DNA of 35,005 bases from a virus: positions 1 through 35,005 of the IMG/VR virus record IMGVR_UViG_3300020201_000063, one strand, 5' to 3'. Made by a program: the position numbers and the translations under genes. Below the pieces are notes generated by a model that was given only the letters and a program-made list of their open reading frames with translations, did not search any database and was not told the DNA's origin. Position 1 is the first letter of the stretch. The number at the start of each line of letters is the position of its first letter. Below, piece after piece: positions 373 through 35,005 of this stretch.

Positions 373-600
373 CTAGATAATACCAAGTTTTCTCTTAGCT
401 AAACTAACTATCTGTCTTATGTTTTCCCTAGAGCAATTATAAGCCTCTCCGATCTCTCGCAATGTCTTTTTATCTATAAAGCGCATGTGCATTATCTTTA
501 AGTATTCAGGTTTTAGACTAGACGATCTAGCACCGATGGCTAGGTCGTTTAATATATCTATAACAAGTTGGTCATTTACTTTATTAGTATGTACTCCCAT
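373..600 (-). CDS. Stand-alone sigma-70 region 4-like DNA-binding protein
   Basis: This 75-residue protein is almost entirely a sigma region-4-like domain. After a roughly 25-residue lead, residues 29-72 read like the family, with the helix-turn-helix LREIGEAYNCSRENIRQIV followed by SLAKRKLG, close to the usual L.EIG...G.SRERIRQIE..AL.KL pattern. In full sigma factors this domain reads the -35 box and contacts the beta flap. No region 2 or 3 is present, so it cannot be a complete sigma factor. It is the last gene of the unit from the promoter at 1617-1646, coupled to the ERF gene by a TAATG overlap. It is likely a transcription regulator; an alternative is an unrelated HTH protein of similar length. 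Confidence 0.75.
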   Translation of the reverse strand: MGVHTNKVNDQLVIDILNDLAIGARSSSLKPEYLKIMHMRFIDKKTLREIGEAYNCSRENIRQIVSLAKRKLGII

Positions 601-1367
601 TAGTCCCTTTCCATTACGTTATTGTATAAATTATCTAGGTTATCTAACTCTTCCTCTGGTAGAATAACATCGTCTGGGTTAACTGTAGTGCCTTCCTCTT
701 CTACTGCGTCCTCTTGTATCGACTCAACCACTTTTTGCTTAAGTTCTGCGGCGGTCTTCTCTATCCGCATTCTATTTTTTGTCATGTTCGCAATAAAATT
801 AGCATTAGTTTGTAGTCTCTTGTGCGTGTCCCATATATAAGACAGTGTTTCCAGATTTTTTACTGAATTAGCTTTAGCATTTGCACTTATTAGGTAATTT
901 GCGTCGGATATTAATTCAGGCGAGTCCGCTTCTGGATCTTTAACGTCTTGCGTAGGTATACAAAATACTTGTAATAAAGCATATTTATGAGCAACGGACA
1001 TAGCTTTATTAGAAGCCTTATCGCCACTGTCCATGCCTTCGCCAATTGTATTAGTTTTTACAAAAGAACCATCCACAGTAAAAAAAGTAAAACGAATGTT
1101 CAAGATCCTATAGATTAGCATTCCCCCGTTTTTCGAGGGTCTTTCTTCATTTTTTTCTGAAACAATTTCCGACGTCGTAAAAACCTGGTGCTTTGCCATG
1201 TGCTTGTTTAGTTCGTTATACACAGCGTCTACGCCTCTAAACTTATAGCGTTGTGCATCGTTGCTAGAATTTTTGGCAACTGGGTTAATATCTGCCATTA
1301 CGCCCGATATCCTAGAATAAATCAGCCCCACTTTCTTGTCCTCCTTTTTACTAATCTTTCTTACCAT
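600..1367 (-). CDS. erf: ERF-family single-strand annealing protein
   Basis: A 255-residue protein with the ERF superfamily core. YKFRGVDAVYNELNKHMAKH lies at about 42-61, followed by the signature IGEGMDSGDKASNKAMSVAH and then KYALLQVFCIPT and DPEADSPE. ERF proteins anneal complementary single strands and promote recombination and circularisation of phage DNA. The C-terminal 80 residues are charged and acidic, as is common in the family for partner binding. The start at 1367 overlaps the upstream gene by 17 nt and the stop overlaps the sigma4-like gene start, so these three genes are one translationally coupled unit. An SSB gene, the usual functional partner, lies far away at 29494. Confidence 0.92.
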   Translation of the reverse strand: MVRKISKKEDKKVGLIYSRISGVMADINPVAKNSSNDAQRYKFRGVDAVYNELNKHMAKHQVFTTSEIVSEKNEERPSKNGGMLIYRILNIRFTFFTVDGSFVKTNTIGEGMDSGDKASNKAMSVAHKYALLQVFCIPTQDVKDPEADSPELISDANYLISANAKANSVKNLETLSYIWDTHKRLQTNANFIANMTKNRMRIEKTAAELKQKVVESIQEDAVEEEGTTVNPDDVILPEEELDNLDNLYNNVMERD

Positions 1368-2173: not shown

Positions 2174-2395
2174 CTAATCTGTCATCGGATTGAAACAACT
2201 GTAGCGGGCTGCATCAATTACCCGTTCGCACTTTTGTGTAAGTGTACAATCTGCATAACAACGTTCAGCAAACTCGTAGTATTCCTCAACTTTCTCTACA
2301 GCATCTTCTCTTTTAACACTAAGCAGGGTATATTTTGACATTATCTTGATTACACGATTTATATAATCCTGCTTAGTGTGTACTTTCATCTTCAT
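2174..2395 (-). CDS. Hypothetical Cys-containing small protein
   Basis: A 73-residue protein starting MKMKVHTKQDYINRVIKIMS and ending SCFNPMTD. It is helical, with four Cys residues (ERCYADCTLTQKC plus one near the C-terminus) that could bind metal, although the spacing matches no standard zinc ribbon. It is the first gene after the promoter at 2432-2462, and its start sequence ATGAAGATGAA is shared with the genes at 310 and 1593. No family recognised. Confidence 0.7.
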   Translation of the reverse strand: MKMKVHTKQDYINRVIKIMSKYTLLSVKREDAVEKVEEYYEFAERCYADCTLTQKCERVIDAARYSCFNPMTD

Positions 2396-2431
2396 CGTTT
2401 TTGTCGTTACCGACTTAATAAGTTATAAATA

Positions 2432-2462
2432 ATTGTAATACATTACTGTGTACTTTGTCAAG
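2432..2462 (-). promoter_or_regulatory. Promoter P3 (CTTGACAAAG type)
   Basis: On the minus strand: TTGACA (2456-2461) inside CTTGACAAAG, an 18-bp spacer, then TACAAT (2432-2437, five of six matches to the -10 consensus). It drives the unit 2395 to 1642. It lies back-to-back with the plus-strand late region, about 36 bp from the candidate plus-strand promoter at 2498. Confidence 0.72.
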
Positions 2463-2497
2463 TACCTTAGACCGAAAGCTTACCGAATACAGCGAAG

Positions 2498-4650: not shown

Positions 4651-5205
4651 ATGGAGTACAAGATAACTAATGTTTCTGATGTAACCGTGAAAGTTAAGTG
4701 GACTATTCCACTTTTAAATGAAAAGGATCGCAGCGATTGGGAGGAATACAAATTAAGTGCTGATTTTATAGGACAGCTCGATGAGGAGAAGATAGCAAAT
4801 AGCAAAACACCGATGGCTAAGAGATTTACAAACTGGCTATCTGGAAAAGAGCTAGGGTCTATGTTTAGGGAAACTTACATAGTAAACGGGATTAAATCGG
4901 TAGTGCCAGCTTATTTTTTTACAATTAAAGCAGGCGAAGCAATAACACTATCTGAGGAAAGAATGGAGCAATTAAAATACCTGGTACGAAAAGAGGTTAT
5001 GCAAAATGAGGACACTATAAAGCGTTCAGGCGGTAAGTTAAAAAATCCGCAATTTGAGGGTTTCTTAACAATAGAGTTAGACGACGAATCGGAATGGCGA
5101 GGTCTGAACAGGAAATCTTTAATTGCAAGGGCTTTGAAGGCTAAATTAGAACATGACCCAGAAGCAACCAGGGACGAGCTTATAAAACTATTAGAGAGTA
5201 ATTAA
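4651..5205 (+). CDS. Hypothetical protein, 184 residues
   Basis: An acidic and lysine-rich protein starting MEYKITNVSDVTVKVKWTIP. The first 120 residues look beta-rich, and the C-terminus (SLIARALKAKLEHDPEATRDELIKLLESN) is helical. No known family recognised. It lies between terminase and portal, where packaging-associated or head-morphogenesis accessory genes are often found. The leader is A-rich without a Shine-Dalgarno match. Confidence 0.7.
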   Translation: MEYKITNVSDVTVKVKWTIPLLNEKDRSDWEEYKLSADFIGQLDEEKIANSKTPMAKRFTNWLSGKELGSMFRETYIVNGIKSVVPAYFFTIKAGEAITLSEERMEQLKYLVRKEVMQNEDTIKRSGGKLKNPQFEGFLTIELDDESEWRGLNRKSLIARALKAKLEHDPEATRDELIKLLESN

Positions 5206-29493: not shown

Positions 29494-29940
29494 ATGTCCT
29501 TATTCGGAGATTTAAACGAAGTTAGGCTTCTTGGTAATATTACTCAAGATATTGAGCTAAGATTCACACCAAGCGGCGCCGCAGTAGCTAATTTTAGCAT
29601 TGCTACTAACCGTCGTTTTAAACAAGGTGAAGAATGGAAGGATGAGAGTGAATTTCACAATATTGTAGTATGGAGCAATCTGGCACAACAGTTAATGCAA
29701 AGAGCTAAGAAAGGAACTAGGGTAATGGTTGTAGGACGGTTACAAACTCGTAGTTGGGAGCAACAAGGACAGAAGAAGTATAAGACTGAGATTATAGCTG
29801 ATGATGTATTCTTAATTGATAGATATGAACGTGGCAAATCAGATACTGCAACACCAGCTACTAGAGAAAATAATAATCCTTTCTTGAATACTGGCGTAAG
29901 TGATGTGAGCCAGATTGACCCTGCAGATTTACCATTTTAG
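29494..29940 (+). CDS. ssb: Single-stranded DNA-binding protein
   Basis: A 148-residue protein with the full OB-fold pattern of bacterial-type SSB: EVRLLGNITQDIELRFTPSG, AAVANFSIATNRRFKQGEEW, ESEFHNIVVWSNLAQQL, KKGTRVMVVGRLQTRSWEQQ and TEIIADDVFLID. The C-terminal tail ends in the acidic tip DPADLPF, used to recruit partner proteins. It coats single strands during replication and recombination, and may present substrate to the ERF protein encoded at 600-1367. It sits behind the lysis genes after a 40-bp gap. Confidence 0.95.
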   Translation: MSLFGDLNEVRLLGNITQDIELRFTPSGAAVANFSIATNRRFKQGEEWKDESEFHNIVVWSNLAQQLMQRAKKGTRVMVVGRLQTRSWEQQGQKKYKTEIIADDVFLIDRYERGKSDTATPATRENNNPFLNTGVSDVSQIDPADLPF

Positions 29941-30072: not shown

Positions 30073-30234
30073 ATGGATTTACTAGCTGTTATTGTTGTCT
30101 TAGTGGTTATATTCTTAGTGTTCGGTGGTAGCCTGGTATTTTCTACAGACCTGCTATTTAAGATCTTATTAGTGATCCTTCTTACAGCAGTAGGCGTCTG
30201 GGTGATTAGATATCTCAGAACTAGCAGGCCTTAG
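30073..30234 (+). CDS. Small two-TM membrane protein, 53 residues
   Basis: From the ATG at 30073: MDLLAVIVVLVVIFLVFGGS, a turn with STDLL, a second span FKILLVILLTAVGVWVI and a basic end RYLRTSRP. A GTG at 30040 would add 11 residues but lies in poor context. It is the last plus-strand gene before the convergent accessory operon. The 132-bp gap before it has a near-palindrome AGACATTTTAAAACGTCT but no gene. Function unknown. Confidence 0.6.
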   Translation: MDLLAVIVVLVVIFLVFGGSLVFSTDLLFKILLVILLTAVGVWVIRYLRTSRP

Positions 30235-30244
30235 ACTTTAGATA

Positions 30245-30294
30245 ACAGGCTTTTTTGCCTGTTTAATAGTCCCTAGTCTTTTCCAGTTAAATAC
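30245..30294. repeat. Gene-end repeat copy A with hairpin; convergent junction
   Basis: ACAGGC-TTTTTT-GCCTGT forms a perfect hairpin (extendable to AACAGGC/GCCTGTT). The 50-nt element, through ATTTAA on the minus strand, is nearly identical to 31045-31094, and its first 40 nt resemble 33346-33386. It lies where the plus-strand late genes meet the minus-strand operon, so it could end transcription from both sides, although no U-tract follows on either strand. In one minus-strand frame it encodes VFNWKRLGTIKQAKKPVI. Confidence 0.6.
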
Positions 30295-30334
30295 TCCTAA
30301 CTCCCCATTCTGGCAACTCTGCAGTGTCTGTCAT
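30287..30334 (-). pseudogene. 15-codon remnant ORF at end of accessory operon
   Basis: The minus-strand ATG at 30334 (ATGA overlap with the preceding gene) encodes MTDTAELPEWGVRSI and stops at TAA. A +1 shift would continue into GVFNWKRLGTIKQAKKPVI of repeat copy A. The good overlap with a stop soon after suggests a frameshifted or truncated gene rather than a functional peptide. Its VRSI end resembles the VRSILGGI end of the 91-residue gene. Confidence 0.35.
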
Positions 30335-30627
30335 AGCTGCTTTCCTAAATTGATAATCGACCCTACTTCATCCATGTTTTTTCGTGTTATTTTTCGTTTA
30401 ATTTCTTCTAGGCGTATTTTGTCTTCACAACTTGTGATAAATGTTTCGCTTGCTTTCTTAGTGATGTCTTTCAATGTAATACAAAACACCTTCTTTTCTC
30501 TTGGACAGTAAAACAATTCACCGTTTAACCATCCATTTTCTACGACTTCAAGATAGTCACCACACTTTGGGCAATAAACTTTACTACCTCTTTCAGTTAG
30601 ATTTTCATATCCGCTATATTCTTTCAT
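30331..30627 (-). CDS. Zinc-ribbon protein, 98 residues
   Basis: MKEYSGYENLTERGSKVYCP begins a zinc ribbon: YCPKCGDYLEV at about 18-28 and YCPREKKVFC at about 40-49, giving a CxxC / C-x7-C arrangement. The second half is a charged helix (RLEEIKRKITRKNMDEVGSI). The leader has AAAGGA 9 nt before the ATG. It is in the minus-strand accessory operon and overlaps the 15-codon remnant. Function unknown. Confidence 0.65.
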   Translation of the reverse strand: MKEYSGYENLTERGSKVYCPKCGDYLEVVENGWLNGELFYCPREKKVFCITLKDITKKASETFITSCEDKIRLEEIKRKITRKNMDEVGSIINLGKQL

Positions 30628-30640
30628 AATTTAGTCCTTT

Positions 30641-30808
30641 TTAGTTAGATTCTCTATCTATAATCTTATCAACACAATGAATACCCGCAAGCTTTCCACA
30701 ACCAGAACACTTCCAGCTCATCATCAATTTTTCTTCTTTATAAAAACTGTATGGCACACCATAATTCCAACCAAGCCAGTGTGCTATTTTATGTATCATT
30801 TTTGTCAT
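30641..30808 (-). CDS. Small Cys-containing protein, 55 residues
   Basis: The minus-strand frame from 30808 gives MTKMIHKIAHWLGWNYGVPY, then SFYKEEKLMMSWKCSGCGKL and AGIHCVDKIIDRESN. CSGC and a later HC could bind one metal. The leader GAAGGAATAACTT gives a Shine-Dalgarno AAGGA. The gene sits between the 70- and 98-residue genes with 3-13 nt gaps, which supports it as real. Confidence 0.6.
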   Translation of the reverse strand: MTKMIHKIAHWLGWNYGVPYSFYKEEKLMMSWKCSGCGKLAGIHCVDKIIDRESN

Positions 30809-30811
30809 AAG

Positions 30812-31024
30812 TTATTCCTTCAATGTAATATCTAGCGGTTCTTCTACTATTTTTATTACGTGGTCATCAAATAATTGTGGCAATATAAAAATCAAAGCGT
30901 TCATTTGCTCGTTATTGAGAGCAACTTGGTGGGTTTTGTTTTTATTACTAATCAAAACAACACAAATTTGTTTGCCTTTTTTCCAGATAAGTTCTTTTGT
31001 GTCTGTCATAGGTTGTATTTTCAT
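30812..31024 (-). CDS. Hypothetical protein with MKIQPMTD start, copy 1
   Basis: A 70-residue protein, MKIQPMTDTKELIWKKGKQI onward; strands then a helix (NNEQMNALIFILPQLFDDHV). Its first 25 nt and the 21 nt upstream are identical to those of the 91-residue gene at 31362, but the proteins diverge after MTD. The leader GGGGGA is 11 nt from the first ATG; the internal ATG at MTD may be an alternative start. No family recognised. Confidence 0.6.
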   Translation of the reverse strand: MKIQPMTDTKELIWKKGKQICVVLISNKNKTHQVALNNEQMNALIFILPQLFDDHVIKIVEEPLDITLKE

Positions 31025-31045
31025 GTGGTTAATAATCCCCCTATA
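31000..31045 (-). repeat. 46-nt start cassette, copy 1
   Basis: A 46-nt block identical to 31338-31383. On the minus strand it covers TATAGGGGGA, the spacer, ATG and the codons for KIQPMTD. Here it lies after the hairpin repeat copy B, in non-coding sequence before the ATG. Exact identity over 46 nt with diverged flanks indicates a recent copy. Confidence 0.85.
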
Positions 31046-31094
31046 CAGGCTTTTTCACCTGTTTAATAGTCCCTAGTCTTTTCCAATTAAATAC
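31045..31094 (-). repeat. Gene-end repeat copy B with hairpin
   Basis: 50 nt nearly identical to 30245-30294. On the minus strand it reads GTATTTAA at the end of the 91-residue gene, then a WKRLGTIKQVKKPV-coding relic that is out of frame, then the hairpin ACAGGU/GCCUGU. The C-to-U change keeps pairing as a U-G wobble, suggesting the stem is maintained. No U-tract follows. Confidence 0.75.
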
Positions 31095-31362
31095 CCCCTA
31101 AAATACTTCTTACCTGCTTGGCGGTCATAGTAAGTGGCACATCGTAGTCGTTGAACACTTGTAGTAGCTCGAGTAGGAGTTTTGATCTTTCTTCTGCCTT
31201 GGCTTGGGCTAGTTCATCGGCAAATAATTTCCAAAGTTGAATAGACAGGTGATCTTCAAAATTACCATCTTCGGGGTCTATGGTTGGCTCTAGCATGTTA
31301 AATTTTAATATCTCTATAAACTTTTCTTTTAATTTTTTGTCTGTCATAGGTTGTATTTTCAT
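31087..31362 (-). CDS. Hypothetical protein with MKIQPMTD start, copy 2
   Basis: A 91-residue protein, MKIQPMTDKKLKEKFIEILK onward, helical and acidic, ending QVRSILGGI. The start overlaps the stop of the 149-residue gene (ATGA), and the start cassette at 31338-31383 supplies GGGGGA upstream. No family recognised. The middle (LWKLFADELAQAKAEERSKL) looks like a helical bundle. Confidence 0.65.
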   Translation of the reverse strand: MKIQPMTDKKLKEKFIEILKFNMLEPTIDPEDGNFEDHLSIQLWKLFADELAQAKAEERSKLLLELLQVFNDYDVPLTMTAKQVRSILGGI

Positions 31363-31383
31363 GTGGTTAATAATCCCCCTATA
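31338..31383 (-). repeat. 46-nt start cassette, copy 2
   Basis: Identical to 31000-31045. Here the same bases also encode the last residues FIGGLLTT of the 149-residue gene, with ATGA overlap, so this copy is probably the original and the one at 31000 derived from it. Confidence 0.85.
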
Positions 31384-31808
31384 AATGTTTTTGTCTTTTC
31401 CGACTGAGCATTAAAGTCGTCTTCAGATAAGTTCCAGAATACATTTTTATAGACTGGGTTTTCTGACCAAACCTGAAATTCTCCTTTTGAATTGATTGCA
31501 ACTGGTGTGTCTGGATTTTTCCATTCGGTATATTTTGTATCTATCGCCAACAAAACCACTGCTAGTGTGATAGGCTTGCCAAGGGTGTTTATGTTATCAA
31601 AATAATATCCATCTTCATACGCTATCAATTCTCCCTTTTCGTCATATGCTTTTTTAGGGCCAAAATTAAGGTGGTAAGTTCTTATAAAATCTTCTTGATT
31701 AAAATAACCAAAATCAATTTCAAAACATCTAACACTGCAACCCTCTTGCAATTCCATAACACTTGGCACTAATTCCTGTATTCGTTTTATTGTTTCTTCG
31801 TGTGTCAT
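31359..31808 (-). CDS. Hypothetical protein, 149 residues
   Basis: It starts MTHEETIKRIQELVPSVMEL and contains a Cys pair (EGCSVRCFEIDFGYF), a beta-rich middle (ELIAYEDGYYFDNINTLGKP) and a helical end KTKTFIGGLLTT. No family recognised. The leader AAAAAGGGCTAAACT places AAGGG before the ATG. The first 39 nt around its start are copied upstream of the methyltransferase at 33094-33132. Confidence 0.65.
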   Translation of the reverse strand: MTHEETIKRIQELVPSVMELQEGCSVRCFEIDFGYFNQEDFIRTYHLNFGPKKAYDEKGELIAYEDGYYFDNINTLGKPITLAVVLLAIDTKYTEWKNPDTPVAINSKGEFQVWSENPVYKNVFWNLSEDDFNAQSEKTKTFIGGLLTT

Positions 31809-31823
31809 AGTTTAGCCCTTTTT
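31785..31823 (-). repeat. 39-nt start cassette of the 149-residue gene (donor copy)
   Basis: 39 nt identical to 33094-33132. It includes AAAAAGGGCTAAACT, the ATG and codons for THEETIK. Here the left part is also coding for the end (TKKG) of the gene at 31812, so this copy is embedded in two genes and is probably the original. Confidence 0.85.
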
Positions 31824-32024
31824 GGTTAATGATTCGTCTACTAGAGATGAGATGATATGTTTACAAGTATCGATATCACTTTCTCCTATGTGTATCTCTT
31901 TGCCGTCTCCTTGCTTCCGATAAAACTCTTCTTGCTTCTGATAGATCTCTATAATATGCTTACTTGTTATGCGGTCTAACAAACTAGGTTTATACGATAT
32001 ACCTTCATTAGTAATTATGGCCAT
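31812..32024 (-). CDS. Hypothetical protein, 70 residues
   Basis: From the ATG at 32024: MAIITNEGISYKPSLLDRIT, then SKHIIEIYQKQEEFYRKQGD and a helical end. An upstream TTG at 32039 is open, but TTAGGA lies 8 nt before the ATG, so the ATG is preferred. Its stop overlaps the ribosome-binding segment of the next gene. No family recognised. Confidence 0.6.
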   Translation of the reverse strand: MAIITNEGISYKPSLLDRITSKHIIEIYQKQEEFYRKQGDGKEIHIGESDIDTCKHIISSLVDESLTKKG

Positions 32025-32044
32025 GTGTTTTCCTAACAATTAAA

Positions 32045-33094
32045 TTAATTAACTAAAAAGCTGAGTATATGTGCAGCCACATCACAGTTAAAAGCATTAC
32101 CAAGCATTTTGTAGCGTTGGGTGTTGCTTACTCCTTCGGTGTAGTTGTCAGGTACGCCCTGTAGTCGTTCGCACTCGATAGGTGTTAGTTTTCGGATCTG
32201 AGTGTCTATTCTTACCATACTATCAGTCTGCACTGTTGTCATTGCGTTCGCTTTACCAGTTCCATTGTATTCTGGTTTCTTACCCTCTCCGCGATTTCTT
32301 AGAGCCACTGGTACTGCATACAACCCAGTTTTTGCACCTCTACCACCACCGAGAGTTGATGACCCTACTGACTTGCCTTCTGAAGAGTAGATACGCTCAC
32401 CTTGTCCACCTTTGCCGATTTGACCTACTCTCATTAACGACATTCCGTCCTTTTGGATTACAAGTTGCCTTCTTCCTTTTTCAATGTACTGTTTCCAACT
32501 AGCACCTTTGGCATAATTTGCATCTATGCAATAACTTTTTAATCTATCACTGTCCCCATTTTCTAAAATATCCTTTAACAATATCCCCCTATCCGCTGGC
32601 AATGTTACATTTGGTATATTCGTCCAAAACAATCTTTTCCTGTTCTGTGCTGACACAAGTGCAGCGTTAATCATAATCGGCTCTACTCCGAGAACTTCGG
32701 TAATAGTAGCCTTTGCTTCTTTTGGCATGCTGTTTACATTCTCAAGTATAAAATACTTTGGTTTTACTTCCTGTAAGATACGCACATACTCCCGGAATAA
32801 ACCAGAACGGGCTCCGTCTAGTCCTTTACGGTCTTTCTTTGCTATTGATAGGTCTTGGCAAGGTGAGCCACCAATCAGGAGGTCTATGTAAATTGGCTCG
32901 TTAGTAGGACTTGGTGTGTCCCAAGCAACTTCTGTCACACTCCCCATCTGCACAATATCAGGATAGTTCTTTGCTGATATTTGCATGGCGTACTTATCAA
33001 CCTCACTAGCATAATACGCTTCCACGGGTACCCCTGCTCTTTCTAAAGCTACTCTTGCACATGATATTCCATCAAACAAACTTAGTATTTTCAT
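32045..33094 (-). CDS. dcm: DNA (cytosine-5) methyltransferase
   Basis: A 349-residue protein with all main C5-methylase motifs in order: motif I LSLFDGISCARVALERAG (4-21, cofactor binding), EVD (31-33), motif IV GGSPCQDLS with catalytic Cys79, motif VI ENV (118-120), motif VIII QNRKRLFWTN (150-159), then a variable target-recognition region and motifs IX-X (KLTPIECERLQGVPDNY, YKMLGNAFN). It adds a methyl group to C5 of cytosine from S-adenosylmethionine. The SLFDGI...SEVD style recalls DNMT3-like phage enzymes. No restriction gene is nearby, so self-protection against host restriction is likely. The start overlaps an 8-codon mini-ORF. Confidence 0.95.
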   Translation of the reverse strand: MKILSLFDGISCARVALERAGVPVEAYYASEVDKYAMQISAKNYPDIVQMGSVTEVAWDTPSPTNEPIYIDLLIGGSPCQDLSIAKKDRKGLDGARSGLFREYVRILQEVKPKYFILENVNSMPKEAKATITEVLGVEPIMINAALVSAQNRKRLFWTNIPNVTLPADRGILLKDILENGDSDRLKSYCIDANYAKGASWKQYIEKGRRQLVIQKDGMSLMRVGQIGKGGQGERIYSSEGKSVGSSTLGGGRGAKTGLYAVPVALRNRGEGKKPEYNGTGKANAMTTVQTDSMVRIDTQIRKLTPIECERLQGVPDNYTEGVSNTQRYKMLGNAFNCDVAAHILSFLVN

Positions 33095-33117
33095 TTTATT
33101 GTTTCTTCGTGTGTCAT
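33091..33117 (-). other. 8-codon mini-ORF coupled to the methyltransferase
   Basis: The ATG at 33117 encodes MTHEETIK and ends in TGA overlapping the methyltransferase ATG (ATGA). It has a good ribosome binding site, AAGGG. The codons are identical to the first eight of the 149-residue gene, carried in by the 39-nt cassette. Translation of the mini-ORF would deliver ribosomes to the methylase start. Confidence 0.5.
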
Positions 33118-33132
33118 AGTTTAGCCCTTTTT
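33094..33132 (-). repeat. 39-nt start cassette, copy before methyltransferase
   Basis: Identical to 31785-31823. It gives the methyltransferase a ready ribosome binding site and creates the mini-ORF MTHEETIK. Identity ends at the methylase ATG, and flanks differ. Confidence 0.85.
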
Positions 33133-33139
33133 AGTTAGT

Positions 33140-33307
33140 TTAATCTCTTTTAATTTCGTCTTTATGTTTTGTGTACATTTCATTTAACTCCGTCATATAG
33201 TAAATTCCGAAATCATATCCATGATGTTTCAATGTGTAGTTCATTATTTTGCTCATTTGATGCCAATACCATGATATTATTTTGTCTTTTAATGTTTCTT
33301 TTCCCAT
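33140..33307 (-). CDS. Small hypothetical protein, 55 residues
   Basis: The minus-strand frame from 33307 reads MGKETLKDKIISWYWHQMSK, then IMNYTLKHHGYDFGIYYMTE and LNEMYTKHKDEIKRD. It is helical and rich in Lys, His and Tyr. It lies 23 nt before the methylase mini-ORF and 34 nt after the 50-residue gene. No Shine-Dalgarno match; A-rich leader. No family recognised. Confidence 0.5.
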   Translation of the reverse strand: MGKETLKDKIISWYWHQMSKIMNYTLKHHGYDFGIYYMTELNEMYTKHKDEIKRD

Positions 33308-33341
33308 ATTTGTTTTTTGTAATAATTAATTAATAATCCCC

Positions 33342-33494
33342 CTATACAGGCTTTTTTGCCTGTTTAGTAGCCCCTAGTTTTTCCAGAATAAGCCCATCAA
33401 TCCAGCCAATAACCCCATCAATACTATCTGACATATTGTGTGTGTAAAGGTTAACTAGCTTCCTAGATAACTCCATCTTTTCGTCTGCTGTCAT
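33342..33494 (-). CDS. Small hypothetical protein, 50 residues, KKPV end
   Basis: The minus-strand frame from 33494 (ATGA overlap with the 131-residue gene) reads MTADEKMELSRKLVNLYTHN, then MSDSIDGVIGWIDGLILEKL and GATKQAKKPV. Its last 13 codons are made from the hairpin repeat (copy D), which in copies A and B is non-coding or frame-broken. This copy is therefore probably the original gene end. No family recognised. Confidence 0.55.
   Translation of the reverse strand: MTADEKMELSRKLVNLYTHNMSDSIDGVIGWIDGLILEKLGATKQAKKPV
33346..33386 (-). repeat. Gene-end repeat copy D with hairpin (coding)
   Basis: The hairpin ACAGGC/GCCTGT with an A6 loop, continuing into CTAGGGGC..., matches about 40 nt of copies A (30245) and B (31045). 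Here it encodes LEKLGATKQAKKPV at the end of the 50-residue gene. It is followed on the minus strand by TATAGGGGGATTATTAA, shared with the 46-nt start cassette. Confidence 0.7.
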
Positions 33495-33886
33495 GATTTT
33501 TCACTTTTCTTAAATACTATTGAACTTTGCAGTTTAGCCTTCTTTGGTTTAGCACTTAAAATCCTCTCTGACTTACCCCCAAGGCCGTCATTTAATACCA
33601 TACATCCTATCATTACTAGGTTATCGGCTAATTCTAGCTTCCTTGTTCGTGACTGGGATGATACGAAATCCATAAACATTGCTGTAATTTGTTCGACTGT
33701 TGCGTGACTTACAGACTTATTAGGCTTATTGTTTTTAGGTACCGCTATTTCAAGATTTAAAAACGCTTTAATATTACCTTTACCTAATTCTTGCATCTGG
33801 TAATTATAAAACTGTTTCCTCATGTCCACATTGCTCTGCACTTTTGTGCCATACACCAAACGCCAGATCTTTGCAAAGATACTCAT
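33491..33886 (-). CDS. Hypothetical protein, 131 residues
   Basis: MSIFAKIWRLVYGTKVQSNV begins a mainly helical basic protein with VEQITAMFMDFVSSQSRTRK in the middle and a Lys-rich end (KPKKAKLQSSIVFKKSEKS). No membrane segment. No family recognised; the basic tail could bind nucleic acid. The ATG at 33886 has only an A-rich leader; the stop overlaps the next start (ATGA). Confidence 0.6.
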   Translation of the reverse strand: MSIFAKIWRLVYGTKVQSNVDMRKQFYNYQMQELGKGNIKAFLNLEIAVPKNNKPNKSVSHATVEQITAMFMDFVSSQSRTRKLELADNLVMIGCMVLNDGLGGKSERILSAKPKKAKLQSSIVFKKSEKS

Positions 33887-33912
33887 TGCTATTAAATAAT
33901 AAACTAAAATAA

Positions 33913-34179
33913 TTAATTTCGCTTAGCTTGGCTAAGCAGTGTTAGTAACATCTTTGTTTCCTCGTTGATACCCATCGCGTCAACCGCTAGTTCTCTATTT
34001 GCGTATTGGTGGAAAAAATCATCACCCTCTACCTTTTTAAGTAGTGGGAATGTAAAGAAATACTGTCTATTATCCTCTGGGTTTGGTACTAACTCGATCC
34101 TATGCCCTAGCACTTTTAAAGCCGCTGCGAAACCTACGTCAGTTGTCTTGTAACCATCCCAATTTGAGAATTGATCCAT
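33913..34179 (-). CDS. Hypothetical protein, 88 residues
   Basis: MDQFSNWDGYKTTDVGFAAA begins a mixed alpha/beta protein with beta-like PEDNRQYFFTFPLLKKVEGD and a helical end (NEETKMLLTLLSQAKRN). The start is 2 nt after the stop of the 44-residue TM gene. No family recognised. It is the second gene from the promoter at 34331. Confidence 0.6.
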   Translation of the reverse strand: MDQFSNWDGYKTTDVGFAAALKVLGHRIELVPNPEDNRQYFFTFPLLKKVEGDDFFHQYANRELAVDAMGINEETKMLLTLLSQAKRN

Positions 34180-34181
34180 GT

Positions 34182-34316
34182 TTATTTCCTAGTAATTAAG
34201 TAGAATAATAGCGCAAAGGTAAATATAAGGTTGATAATCATCATTGCTAGATAAATATTCAAAGCCCTCAACCTTGACTTGTTGTTTTGTCTGGATTTCT
34301 TAATAGTTGTATTCAT
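34182..34316 (-). CDS. Tiny single-pass membrane protein, 44 residues
   Basis: The minus-strand frame from 34316 encodes MNTTIKKSRQNNKSRLRALN, strongly basic, then a membrane span IYLAMMIINLIFTFALLFYL and ITRK. A basic N-terminus and a single span predict N-in orientation. It is the first gene after the consensus promoter at 34331-34360 and ends 2 nt before the next gene, which makes it credible despite its size. Function unknown. Confidence 0.6.
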   Translation of the reverse strand: MNTTIKKSRQNNKSRLRALNIYLAMMIINLIFTFALLFYLITRK

Positions 34317-34330
34317 TATGTTATACGTTA

Positions 34331-34360
34331 ATTATAGATTACCCACTGCGCTTTGTCAAG
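34331..34360 (-). promoter_or_regulatory. Promoter P4, perfect sigma70 consensus
   Basis: On the minus strand: TTGACA (34354-34359) in the shared decamer CTTGACAAAG, a 17-bp spacer and TATAAT (34331-34336). Both boxes match the consensus exactly. It drives the accessory operon from 34316 leftward. A nested inverted repeat lies directly upstream of the -35. Confidence 0.88.
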
Positions 34361-34414: not shown

Positions 34415-34540
34415 TTTGCTGTCGAAGTCGGTTTAACCCGCCGTTCTAGCCCCATATAGACTGCGTTTCAACATAACTAGAACGCCTTAAATCGCAGCAC
34501 GTTGCAACGTGTTAGTAGGACTAAACGACGTTGCAAACTG

Positions 34541-34729
34541 CTAAGATATAAGATCCTTTAGTCCACATGCCACAATCGCCGAGTCGAACTCGTCAGGATT
34601 GCAAAGCATTGCCAGGCAATCCACGAAAAAACCTAGTGTCAATTCACCTTGTTGGTACATATCAAAATGCTCTTGTATTGCTGTATACCGTGCTATTTCA
34701 GCAACTTTAAAACTTGGATTTCCTTCCAT
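34541..34729 (-). CDS. Hypothetical protein, 62 residues
   Basis: MEGNPSFKVAEIARYTAIQE, then HFDMYQQGELTLGFFVDCLA and MLCNPDEFDSAIVACGLKDL. Helical, acidic, three Cys residues. It starts 4 nt after the octapeptide-repeat gene stop. No family recognised. Confidence 0.6.
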   Translation of the reverse strand: MEGNPSFKVAEIARYTAIQEHFDMYQQGELTLGFFVDCLAMLCNPDEFDSAIVACGLKDLIS

Positions 34730-34733
34730 AATT

Positions 34734-35005
34734 TTAATCAGCTAAATTTAAATATTTAACATCGCTCCCCTCAAATGCGTACACATCGCTCCCATCATAT
34801 GCTTTCACATAACTCCCCGCATGTGCGACCACATAACTCCCCTCATATGCTTTCACATAACTCCCATCAAATGCTTTCACATCGCTACCCTTAAATGCTT
34901 TGACAGAACTCCCTGCAAATGCGTACACAATACTTCCATTATGTGCTTCCACGACACTGCCCCCATATGCGTACACAACACTATCCTCATTTGCGTCTAC
35001 AAAAC
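34734..35005 (-). CDS. Octapeptide-repeat protein, N-terminus beyond window
   Basis: The minus-strand frame is open to the window edge; a GTG at 34976 is internal to the repeats, so the true start lies beyond. At least ten 8-residue repeats of the form V-x-A-(Y/F/H)-x-G-S-x are seen, for example VVYAYGGSVVEAHNGS and DVKAFDGSYVKAYEGS, ending KYLNLAD. The DNA has a matching 24-nt period with variation mostly at third and variable positions. Regular Val/Ala/Gly-Ser spacing suggests a beta-solenoid. Function unknown. Confidence 0.75.
   Translation of the reverse strand, partial: FVDANEDSVVYAYGGSVVEAHNGSIVYAFAGSSVKAFKGSDVKAFDGSYVKAYEGSYVVAHAGSYVKAYDGSDVYAFEGSDVKYLNLAD

Follow-up and report, generated by a model that had tools for sequence, protein, structure and literature searches.

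Promoter early stem-loops (PeSLs) of T4-type phages (Arbiol 2010, Comeau 2014) are, as cited in PMC4503421, among the described elements closest to the locus analysed here. Other candidates for comparison are the start-associated sequences (SAS) and extended SAS (ESAS) of Cluster K mycobacteriophages (PMC3203893) and Microbacterium phages (PMC7302621), the boundary sequences of lambdoid phages with their relaxed homologous recombination (PMC3029335; PMC3945230), and the "ORFanage" of the cyanophage S-PM2 (PMC4503421). Most phage genes are tiny and uncharacterised, and their movement between unrelated phages is poorly documented. The subject of this study is a minus-strand operon of small genes in the virus record IMGVR_UViG_3300020201_000063, a locus in a non-model group whose gene borders are readable base by base, scars included. 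The window (the whole stretch of DNA analysed) is this single 35,005-base IMG/VR record, with its two ends unjoined; it derives from a tailed phage with terminase, portal, capsid, SSB and ERF genes. IMG/VR, GTDB and INPHARED were the collections searched, and all sequences compared are metagenome records.

The operon appears to have been assembled by cassette swapping, since the same joint pieces and two or three of its genes are found in otherwise unrelated phages. We assign a probability of about 0.78 to this reading, in which accessory genes would have been exchanged as cassettes at short repeated joints. Shuffling at the repeats, first proposed in a sequence-only reading of the same DNA, is well supported by comparison: the homology of shared genes ends at the joints, scars of the joints are left behind, and operon content differs almost totally between two related phages that carry the same cassettes (G007 and G012).

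Gene layout and repeated joints

The operon runs from 34316 to 30287 and comprises 12 nearly contiguous ORFs of at least 44 aa, namely 11 genes of 44-149 aa and one 349-aa C5-cytosine methyltransferase (Dcm). The dozen tiny genes claimed for 30287-34316 are thus present in number and arrangement, save that one of them, Dcm, is not tiny. The ATGA overlaps noticed earlier occur at four places (33491/33494, 33091/33094, 31359/31362 and 30331/30334), and the truncated 15-codon remnant is accompanied by a second scrap of 8 codons in front of Dcm.

34331..34359, minus: perfect sigma-70 promoter, TTGACA-17-TATAAT (12/12), upstream of gene 1
34182..34316, minus: gene 1, 44 aa, one hydrophobic segment
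33913..34179, minus: gene 2, 88 aa, without a credible match in the family-library search
33491..33886, minus: gene 3, 131 aa, likewise without a credible family match
33342..33494, minus: gene 4, 50 aa, overlapping gene 3 by ATGA; the hairpin end cassette occurs here in coding form, as the 14 final codons (LEKLGATKQAKKPV and stop)
33140..33307, minus: gene 5, 55 aa, common to phages G003 and G004
33091..33117, minus: 8-codon leader MTHEETIK and stop, which overlaps Dcm by ATGA and represents the start cassette of the 149-aa gene as an orphan
32045..33094, minus: Dcm, C5-cytosine DNA methyltransferase, 349 aa (PF00145, 2.8e-45)
31812..32024, minus: gene 7, 70 aa, ATG start; alternative TTG start possible at 32039
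31359..31808, minus: gene 8, 149 aa, MTHEETIK family
31087..31362, minus: gene 9, 91 aa, begins MKIQPMTD
30812..31024, minus: gene 10, 70 aa, begins MKIQPMTD; body unrelated to gene 9
30641..30808, minus: gene 11, 55 aa, one CxxC pair
30331..30627, minus: gene 12, 98 aa, zinc-ribbon-like CxxC motif (weak match, below cut-off)
30287..30334, minus: 15-codon remnant (MTDTAELPEWGVRSI and stop), in which an MTD start as in the MKIQPMTD genes is joined to the VRSI end seen in gene 9
29494..29940, plus: SSB (phrog_44, 3.1e-43)

Gene starts and ends are tied together by exact direct repeats of 46, 39, 28, 27, 21 and 17 nt, while the longest repeat in 300 dinucleotide shuffles was 16 nt. Across the whole record, exact repeats of at least 20 nt are confined to the operon locus, with a single exception in an octapeptide array at 34.8 kb. 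Just two of the operon's repeats are at least 39 nt long (46 nt, 31000-31045 = 31338-31383; 39 nt, 31785-31823 = 33094-33132); the remaining ones are shorter or imperfect, so that the exact homologies of 39-50 nt described earlier were correct for these two only. The joints sort into three kinds: a ribosome-binding-site (RBS)/start joint, TAACTAAAAAGGRCTAAAYTATGA, found three times; a hairpin end cassette, likewise found three times, which in the gene at 33342-33494 is translated as the final 14 codons; and the 17-nt element TATAGGGGGATTATTAA. Several genes have a repeated element at the ribosome-binding position, TAACTAAAAAGGRCTAAAYTATGA in three cases and GGGGGATTATTAACCACATG in two.

33114..33137, minus: RBS/start joint, copy 1, TAACTAAAAAGGGCTAAACTATGA
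31805..31828, minus: RBS/start joint, copy 2, TAACCAAAAAGGGCTAAACTATGA
30624..30647, minus: RBS/start joint, copy 3, TAACTAAAAAGGACTAAATTATGA
33330..33391, minus: end cassette, copy 1, hairpin ACAGGC-A6-GCCTGT followed by a 17-nt TATAGGGGGATTATTAA scar (33330-33346)
31029..31090, minus: end cassette, copy 2, with an orphan 17-nt scar at 31029-31045
30229..30290, minus: end cassette, copy 3, hairpin present, where the operon converges with the SSB operon
31338..31383, minus: MKIQPMTD start joint, copy 1, gene 8 end plus gene 9 start, 46-nt exact repeat
31000..31045, minus: MKIQPMTD start joint, copy 2, 46-nt exact repeat
31367..31383, minus: genuine 3' end element of gene 8, TATAGGGGGATTATTAA

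The stem-loop ACAGGC-A6-GCCTGT was found in all three end cassettes, folding having covered these cassettes only. A plain terminator was considered for this element and rejected, as a T run is missing after the stem. An Rfam search gave no match. The promoter at 34331-34359 is the only match in the window at one mismatch or fewer (chance expectation 0.41 at that stringency), and no 12/12 or 11/12 sigma-70 consensus match is present at the internal joints. The IMG/VR search for the exact 27-nt joint found none. Between the operon promoter and the next upstream gene lies an imperfect 25-nt inverted repeat (34486-34552; 80%, 17-nt gap), possibly a regulatory or origin element.

Twice the 17-nt TATAGGGGGATTATTAA precedes CCACATGAAAATACAACCTATGACAGACA, the start of genes 9 and 10, whose bodies are unrelated; their start windows are 98% alike over 50 nt (best of 538 shuffled windows, 0.68). 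The 15-codon remnant resembles an internally deleted copy, as it combines an MTD start of the MKIQPMTD type with a VRSI end like that of the gene at 31087-31362. The MKIQPMTD starts, the hairpin ends and this remnant would also be compatible with a unit that was duplicated and then lost internal sequence, that is, with local tandem duplication and decay within one lineage and no exchange between phages. We regard such an origin as very improbable: unrelated bodies stand behind identical starts, two genes are common to distant phages at 79-87% aa identity, and the 149-aa gene occurs in five unrelated phages.

A 149-residue gene family and its separable ends

The 149-aa family (gene 8) is the sole protein common to the window and phages G005, G006, G007, G008 and G010. 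Its start, centre (LGKPITL) and end (TFIGGLL) are conserved, with variable stretches between them. With respect to G005, the C-terminal half is 87% identical at the nucleotide level and residues ~24-75 are not alignable; likeness of the second half, combined with a first half largely unalignable past the conserved start, points to exchange inside the gene as well.

Both ends of the family are also found detached from it. The 17-nt TATAGGGGGATTATTAA is its 3' coding end (FIGGLL); it stands once in the window at the end of the 149-aa gene and twice as an orphan, and is 17/17 identical in G007 (three copies), G010 and G011. The family start stands alone as the 8-codon leader of the methyltransferase and is fused in frame to another gene in G008, while in G007 and G012 "ends only" genes of 31 codons join the start directly to the end. 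A degenerate IMG/VR scan for MTHEETI(K/N) returned 12 stretches ahead of several unrelated bodies. All but L116 use the spelling ATGACMCACGAAGAAACAATAA, one of 384 possible, for which the chance from codon usage is ~1.6% each time. Synonymous identity at conserved residues is 0.90 for codons 2-11 vs 0.64 for codons 12-22.

Such conservation invites the explanation that the repeated starts and ends are functional signals (for translation initiation, coupling or RNA stability) kept by selection, with the turnover of genes due to illegitimate recombination and merely filtered. Similar repeated start elements are indeed known with no demonstrated role in exchange (PMC3203893; PMC7302621), ribosome sites and hairpins do form part of the joints, and the 31-codon genes join at ~3 nt. 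Against these points, conservation across unrelated phages begins at the ATG and not at the ribosome site, with nothing conserved 5' of it; the 17-nt coding end of one gene persists as an orphan ahead of other genes; the exact repeats of 39-46 nt are longer than a signal needs; and the foreign shared genes stop at joints. On balance we consider selection on signals an unlikely account of the locus as a whole, and prefer its assembly by cassette exchange.

Neither the start cassette nor the 149-aa family was found in the GTDB genomes searched, and consequently no host was found. An AlphaFold model of the 149-aa protein (6 sequences) was unusable (pLDDT 42). The gene was also considered as a transposon-like element and rejected, as it gave no family match of any kind and no inverted repeats were seen at its ends; the upstream gene duplicated together with the 31-codon gene in G007 further disfavours this idea.

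Shared genes and content turnover in other phages

Phages G003 and G004 are distant from the window phage, their structural proteins being mostly 30-49% identical in amino acid sequence (~20% for the weakest, terminase). The 55-aa gene at 33140-33307 is nevertheless 85-87% (aa) and 90-93% (nt) identical in them vs the window, and this homology is limited to 33137/33140-33333, that is, from one repeat's edge to another's. A tRNA-Leu (CAG) gene lies near the 55-aa gene in both phages (L043 4038-4110; L046 11387-11459). Tandem paralogous genes of 70-110 aa with near-identical starts (MSSPLSRDGYGDGYG) were also observed at L045 1946-4428 in G004, on L047 (~G004 41941-43348) and on L044 at the end of G003.

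A second accessory site, at the left of the window, behaves in a similar way.

2174..2395, minus: 73-aa gene, common to G003 (79% aa) and G002
2383..2490, minus: promoter/start cassette (TTGACA-18-TACAAT ... ATGAAGATGAAA); 107-nt copies at 95-97% plus a partial copy in G001, before different genes

The homology of the 73-aa gene with G003 stops at this repeated cassette. Phage G001 is collinear with the window over 2389-29371 (~27 kb) at 98-99.6% and has, at the place of the 73-aa gene, a different set of genes spanning ~2.2 kb, among them octapeptide-repeat genes preceded by cassette copies. Phage G002 carries the window's version of the site and agrees with the window over 15.4 kb, the 73-aa gene included. 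The latter agreement bears on the concern that repeats led the assembler to join pieces of different phages, a concern natural enough where every sequence is a metagenome contig. We hold such an artefact to be the least credible of the explanations considered, since the start, end and 31-codon elements also recur in separate records with different metagenome numbers, and ORFs and overlaps are intact across the joints.

Adjoining the variable left site, a 54-aa protein (1971-2135) resembles the ribbon-helix-helix mobilisation protein NikA (PF21983, 6.7e-08). Three octapeptide paralogues, two of them of 146 and 200 aa, lie upstream of the small terminase gene of G001 (L014 359-2029), and the 200-aa one had no credible family match. 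The window has an octapeptide array of its own at 34734-35005, a gene of 24-nt (8-residue, GSxVxAxx) repeats cut by the right end of the record.

Turnover of operon content is seen directly between G007 and G012. Their sequences agree at 98-99% along one flank of a 6.4-kb tiny-gene operon and at 92% along the other flank, with an interior that is almost wholly different save for short patches and a few whole genes. Start or stop codons fall within 13 of the 19 short patches, compared with 3.7 for random placement (0 of 20,000 trials reached 13), in a statistic that treats the blast patches as independent. A coda of the SLDKPLTDK type is common to several unrelated proteins of this operon, including ones of 209 and 428 aa; a pentapeptide-repeat protein is among the coda-bearing proteins in G007. 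The G007 operon (L057 7040-13430) has more than 20 tiny genes with a common middle motif, QAIAEDRERVR. Content fixed across relatives, with repeats away from the borders of gene gain, would have spoken against shuffling; the opposite is seen in G007/G012 and in the left locus (the window phage, G000, vs G001), while both close relatives of the window phage end short of 30-34 kb itself.

Several points weigh against cassette exchange as the origin of the locus. Phages G001 and G002 stop before 30-34 kb, so that no gene was directly observed to enter or leave at these particular joints. G007 and G012 carry the same cassettes but are not close relatives of the window phage, and the patch statistic that they yield is subject to the independence just mentioned. 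Among the contigs compared, the three RBS joints and the hairpin cassette were seen only within the window record. Selection on translation could account for part of the strong conservation at gene starts. Finally, ~3 nt of homology would suffice for some junctions, such as those of the 31-codon genes, and these could have arisen illegitimately, which implies that not every event used the joints.

Other handles gave no relative with the same locus. SSB, used as one, led to none, and for the methyltransferase the nucleotide similarity with other phages stops near the ORF limits, with no shared flanks, so the relatives of this enzyme are uninformative in this respect. A cytosine methyltransferase remnant in which start and end motifs are joined and the middle is missing was observed on a 112-kb phage contig (L107, ~4957-5156).

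Possible mechanism and comparison with known systems

The joints, 17-60 nt long and partly coding, consist either of a ribosome site, the ATG and the first codons, or of last codons, a stop, a hairpin and the next ribosome site. They would act as homology patches at which tiny genes are inserted, replaced, duplicated or trimmed, the partners being co-infecting phages with the same joints and otherwise unrelated genomes. Annealing-type recombination during co-infection is the most likely route, with ERF as the obvious candidate catalyst. The presence of this protein, asserted earlier, was borne out by a profile match, and G007 has a match as well (3.6e-36), placing ERF in both lineages.

600..1367, minus: ERF-family single-strand annealing protein (phrog_155, 1.2e-24)

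The Erf of phage D3 recombines diverged sequences efficiently, and, according to one study, ~30% of the mosaics of temperate phages are bordered by homology traces (PMC3945230). The joints may have been kept for the translation signals and the coupling that they also provide, and the genes could be cargo useful against some hosts. The suggestion of host takeover or anti-defence functions found no support beyond the methyltransferase, which was the only match for ten operon genes in PADLOC (a library of defence and not counter-defence systems). Searches of family libraries with the genes other than gene 1 likewise gave Dcm, an orphan-type cytosine methyltransferase, as the sole credible match, the zinc-ribbon matches for 30331-30627 falling below the cut-off; the accessory proteins had no match in 50,697 phage genomes.

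More speculatively, phages with no other genes in common might share translated joints, with tiny genes and gene segments (such as the variable middle of the 149-aa protein) circulating as a communal pool and the 149-aa ends serving as a standard adapter that leaves scars; we consider this extension possible rather than probable. The joints offer a 17-23 nt search handle for further cargo genes. If they are a true exchange route, they would allow accessory genes to be gathered in a systematic way and then tested for effects on the host.

Among known systems, the PeSLs as summarised in PMC4503421 share with this locus the repeated stem-loop junction elements between small uncharacterised genes and the shuffling of modules among phages. 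A stem-loop is present in the three end cassettes, and content differs between relatives at the elements, as seen in G007/G012 and at the left site. Unlike PeSLs, which that summary presents as composite promoter-terminator elements between genes, the joints consist of ribosome sites and coding ends or starts; they also, in distinction from PeSLs so far as that source describes them, pass between phages that have no other gene in common. Nor does each junction have an early promoter: the perfect promoter stands before gene 1 only, and the left site has its promoter/start cassette. The locus is not classed as PeSL because its internal joints are without promoters.

As with SAS and ESAS, a near-identical element stands before many small genes of different families. 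SAS are, however, ~13 nt long and occupy the ribosome site, preceded by an inverted repeat, whereas conservation here reaches into the coding region, gene ends are conserved too, and the elements lie at exchange borders. The joints as read differ from the Cluster K SAS consensus GGGATAGGAGCCC (17-bp inverted repeat upstream), a comparison in which the consensus itself was not scanned. Lambdoid boundary sequences resemble the joints in their short border homology and in the association with Rad52-like recombinases, Erf included, and both a recombinase (ERF) and traces of homology at the borders of exchanged fragments are present here; the lambdoid modules are large, whereas single tiny genes and gene parts are involved in this locus. 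The ORFanage of S-PM2 is likewise a block of small uncharacterised genes of unstable content, for which the authors found too few stem-loop elements to explain it (PMC4503421), while here repeated joints mark the borders. Judged from sequence comparison, what is distinctive about this operon is that its joints are partly coding, stand at both ends of genes, and appear to be common to phages with nothing else shared.

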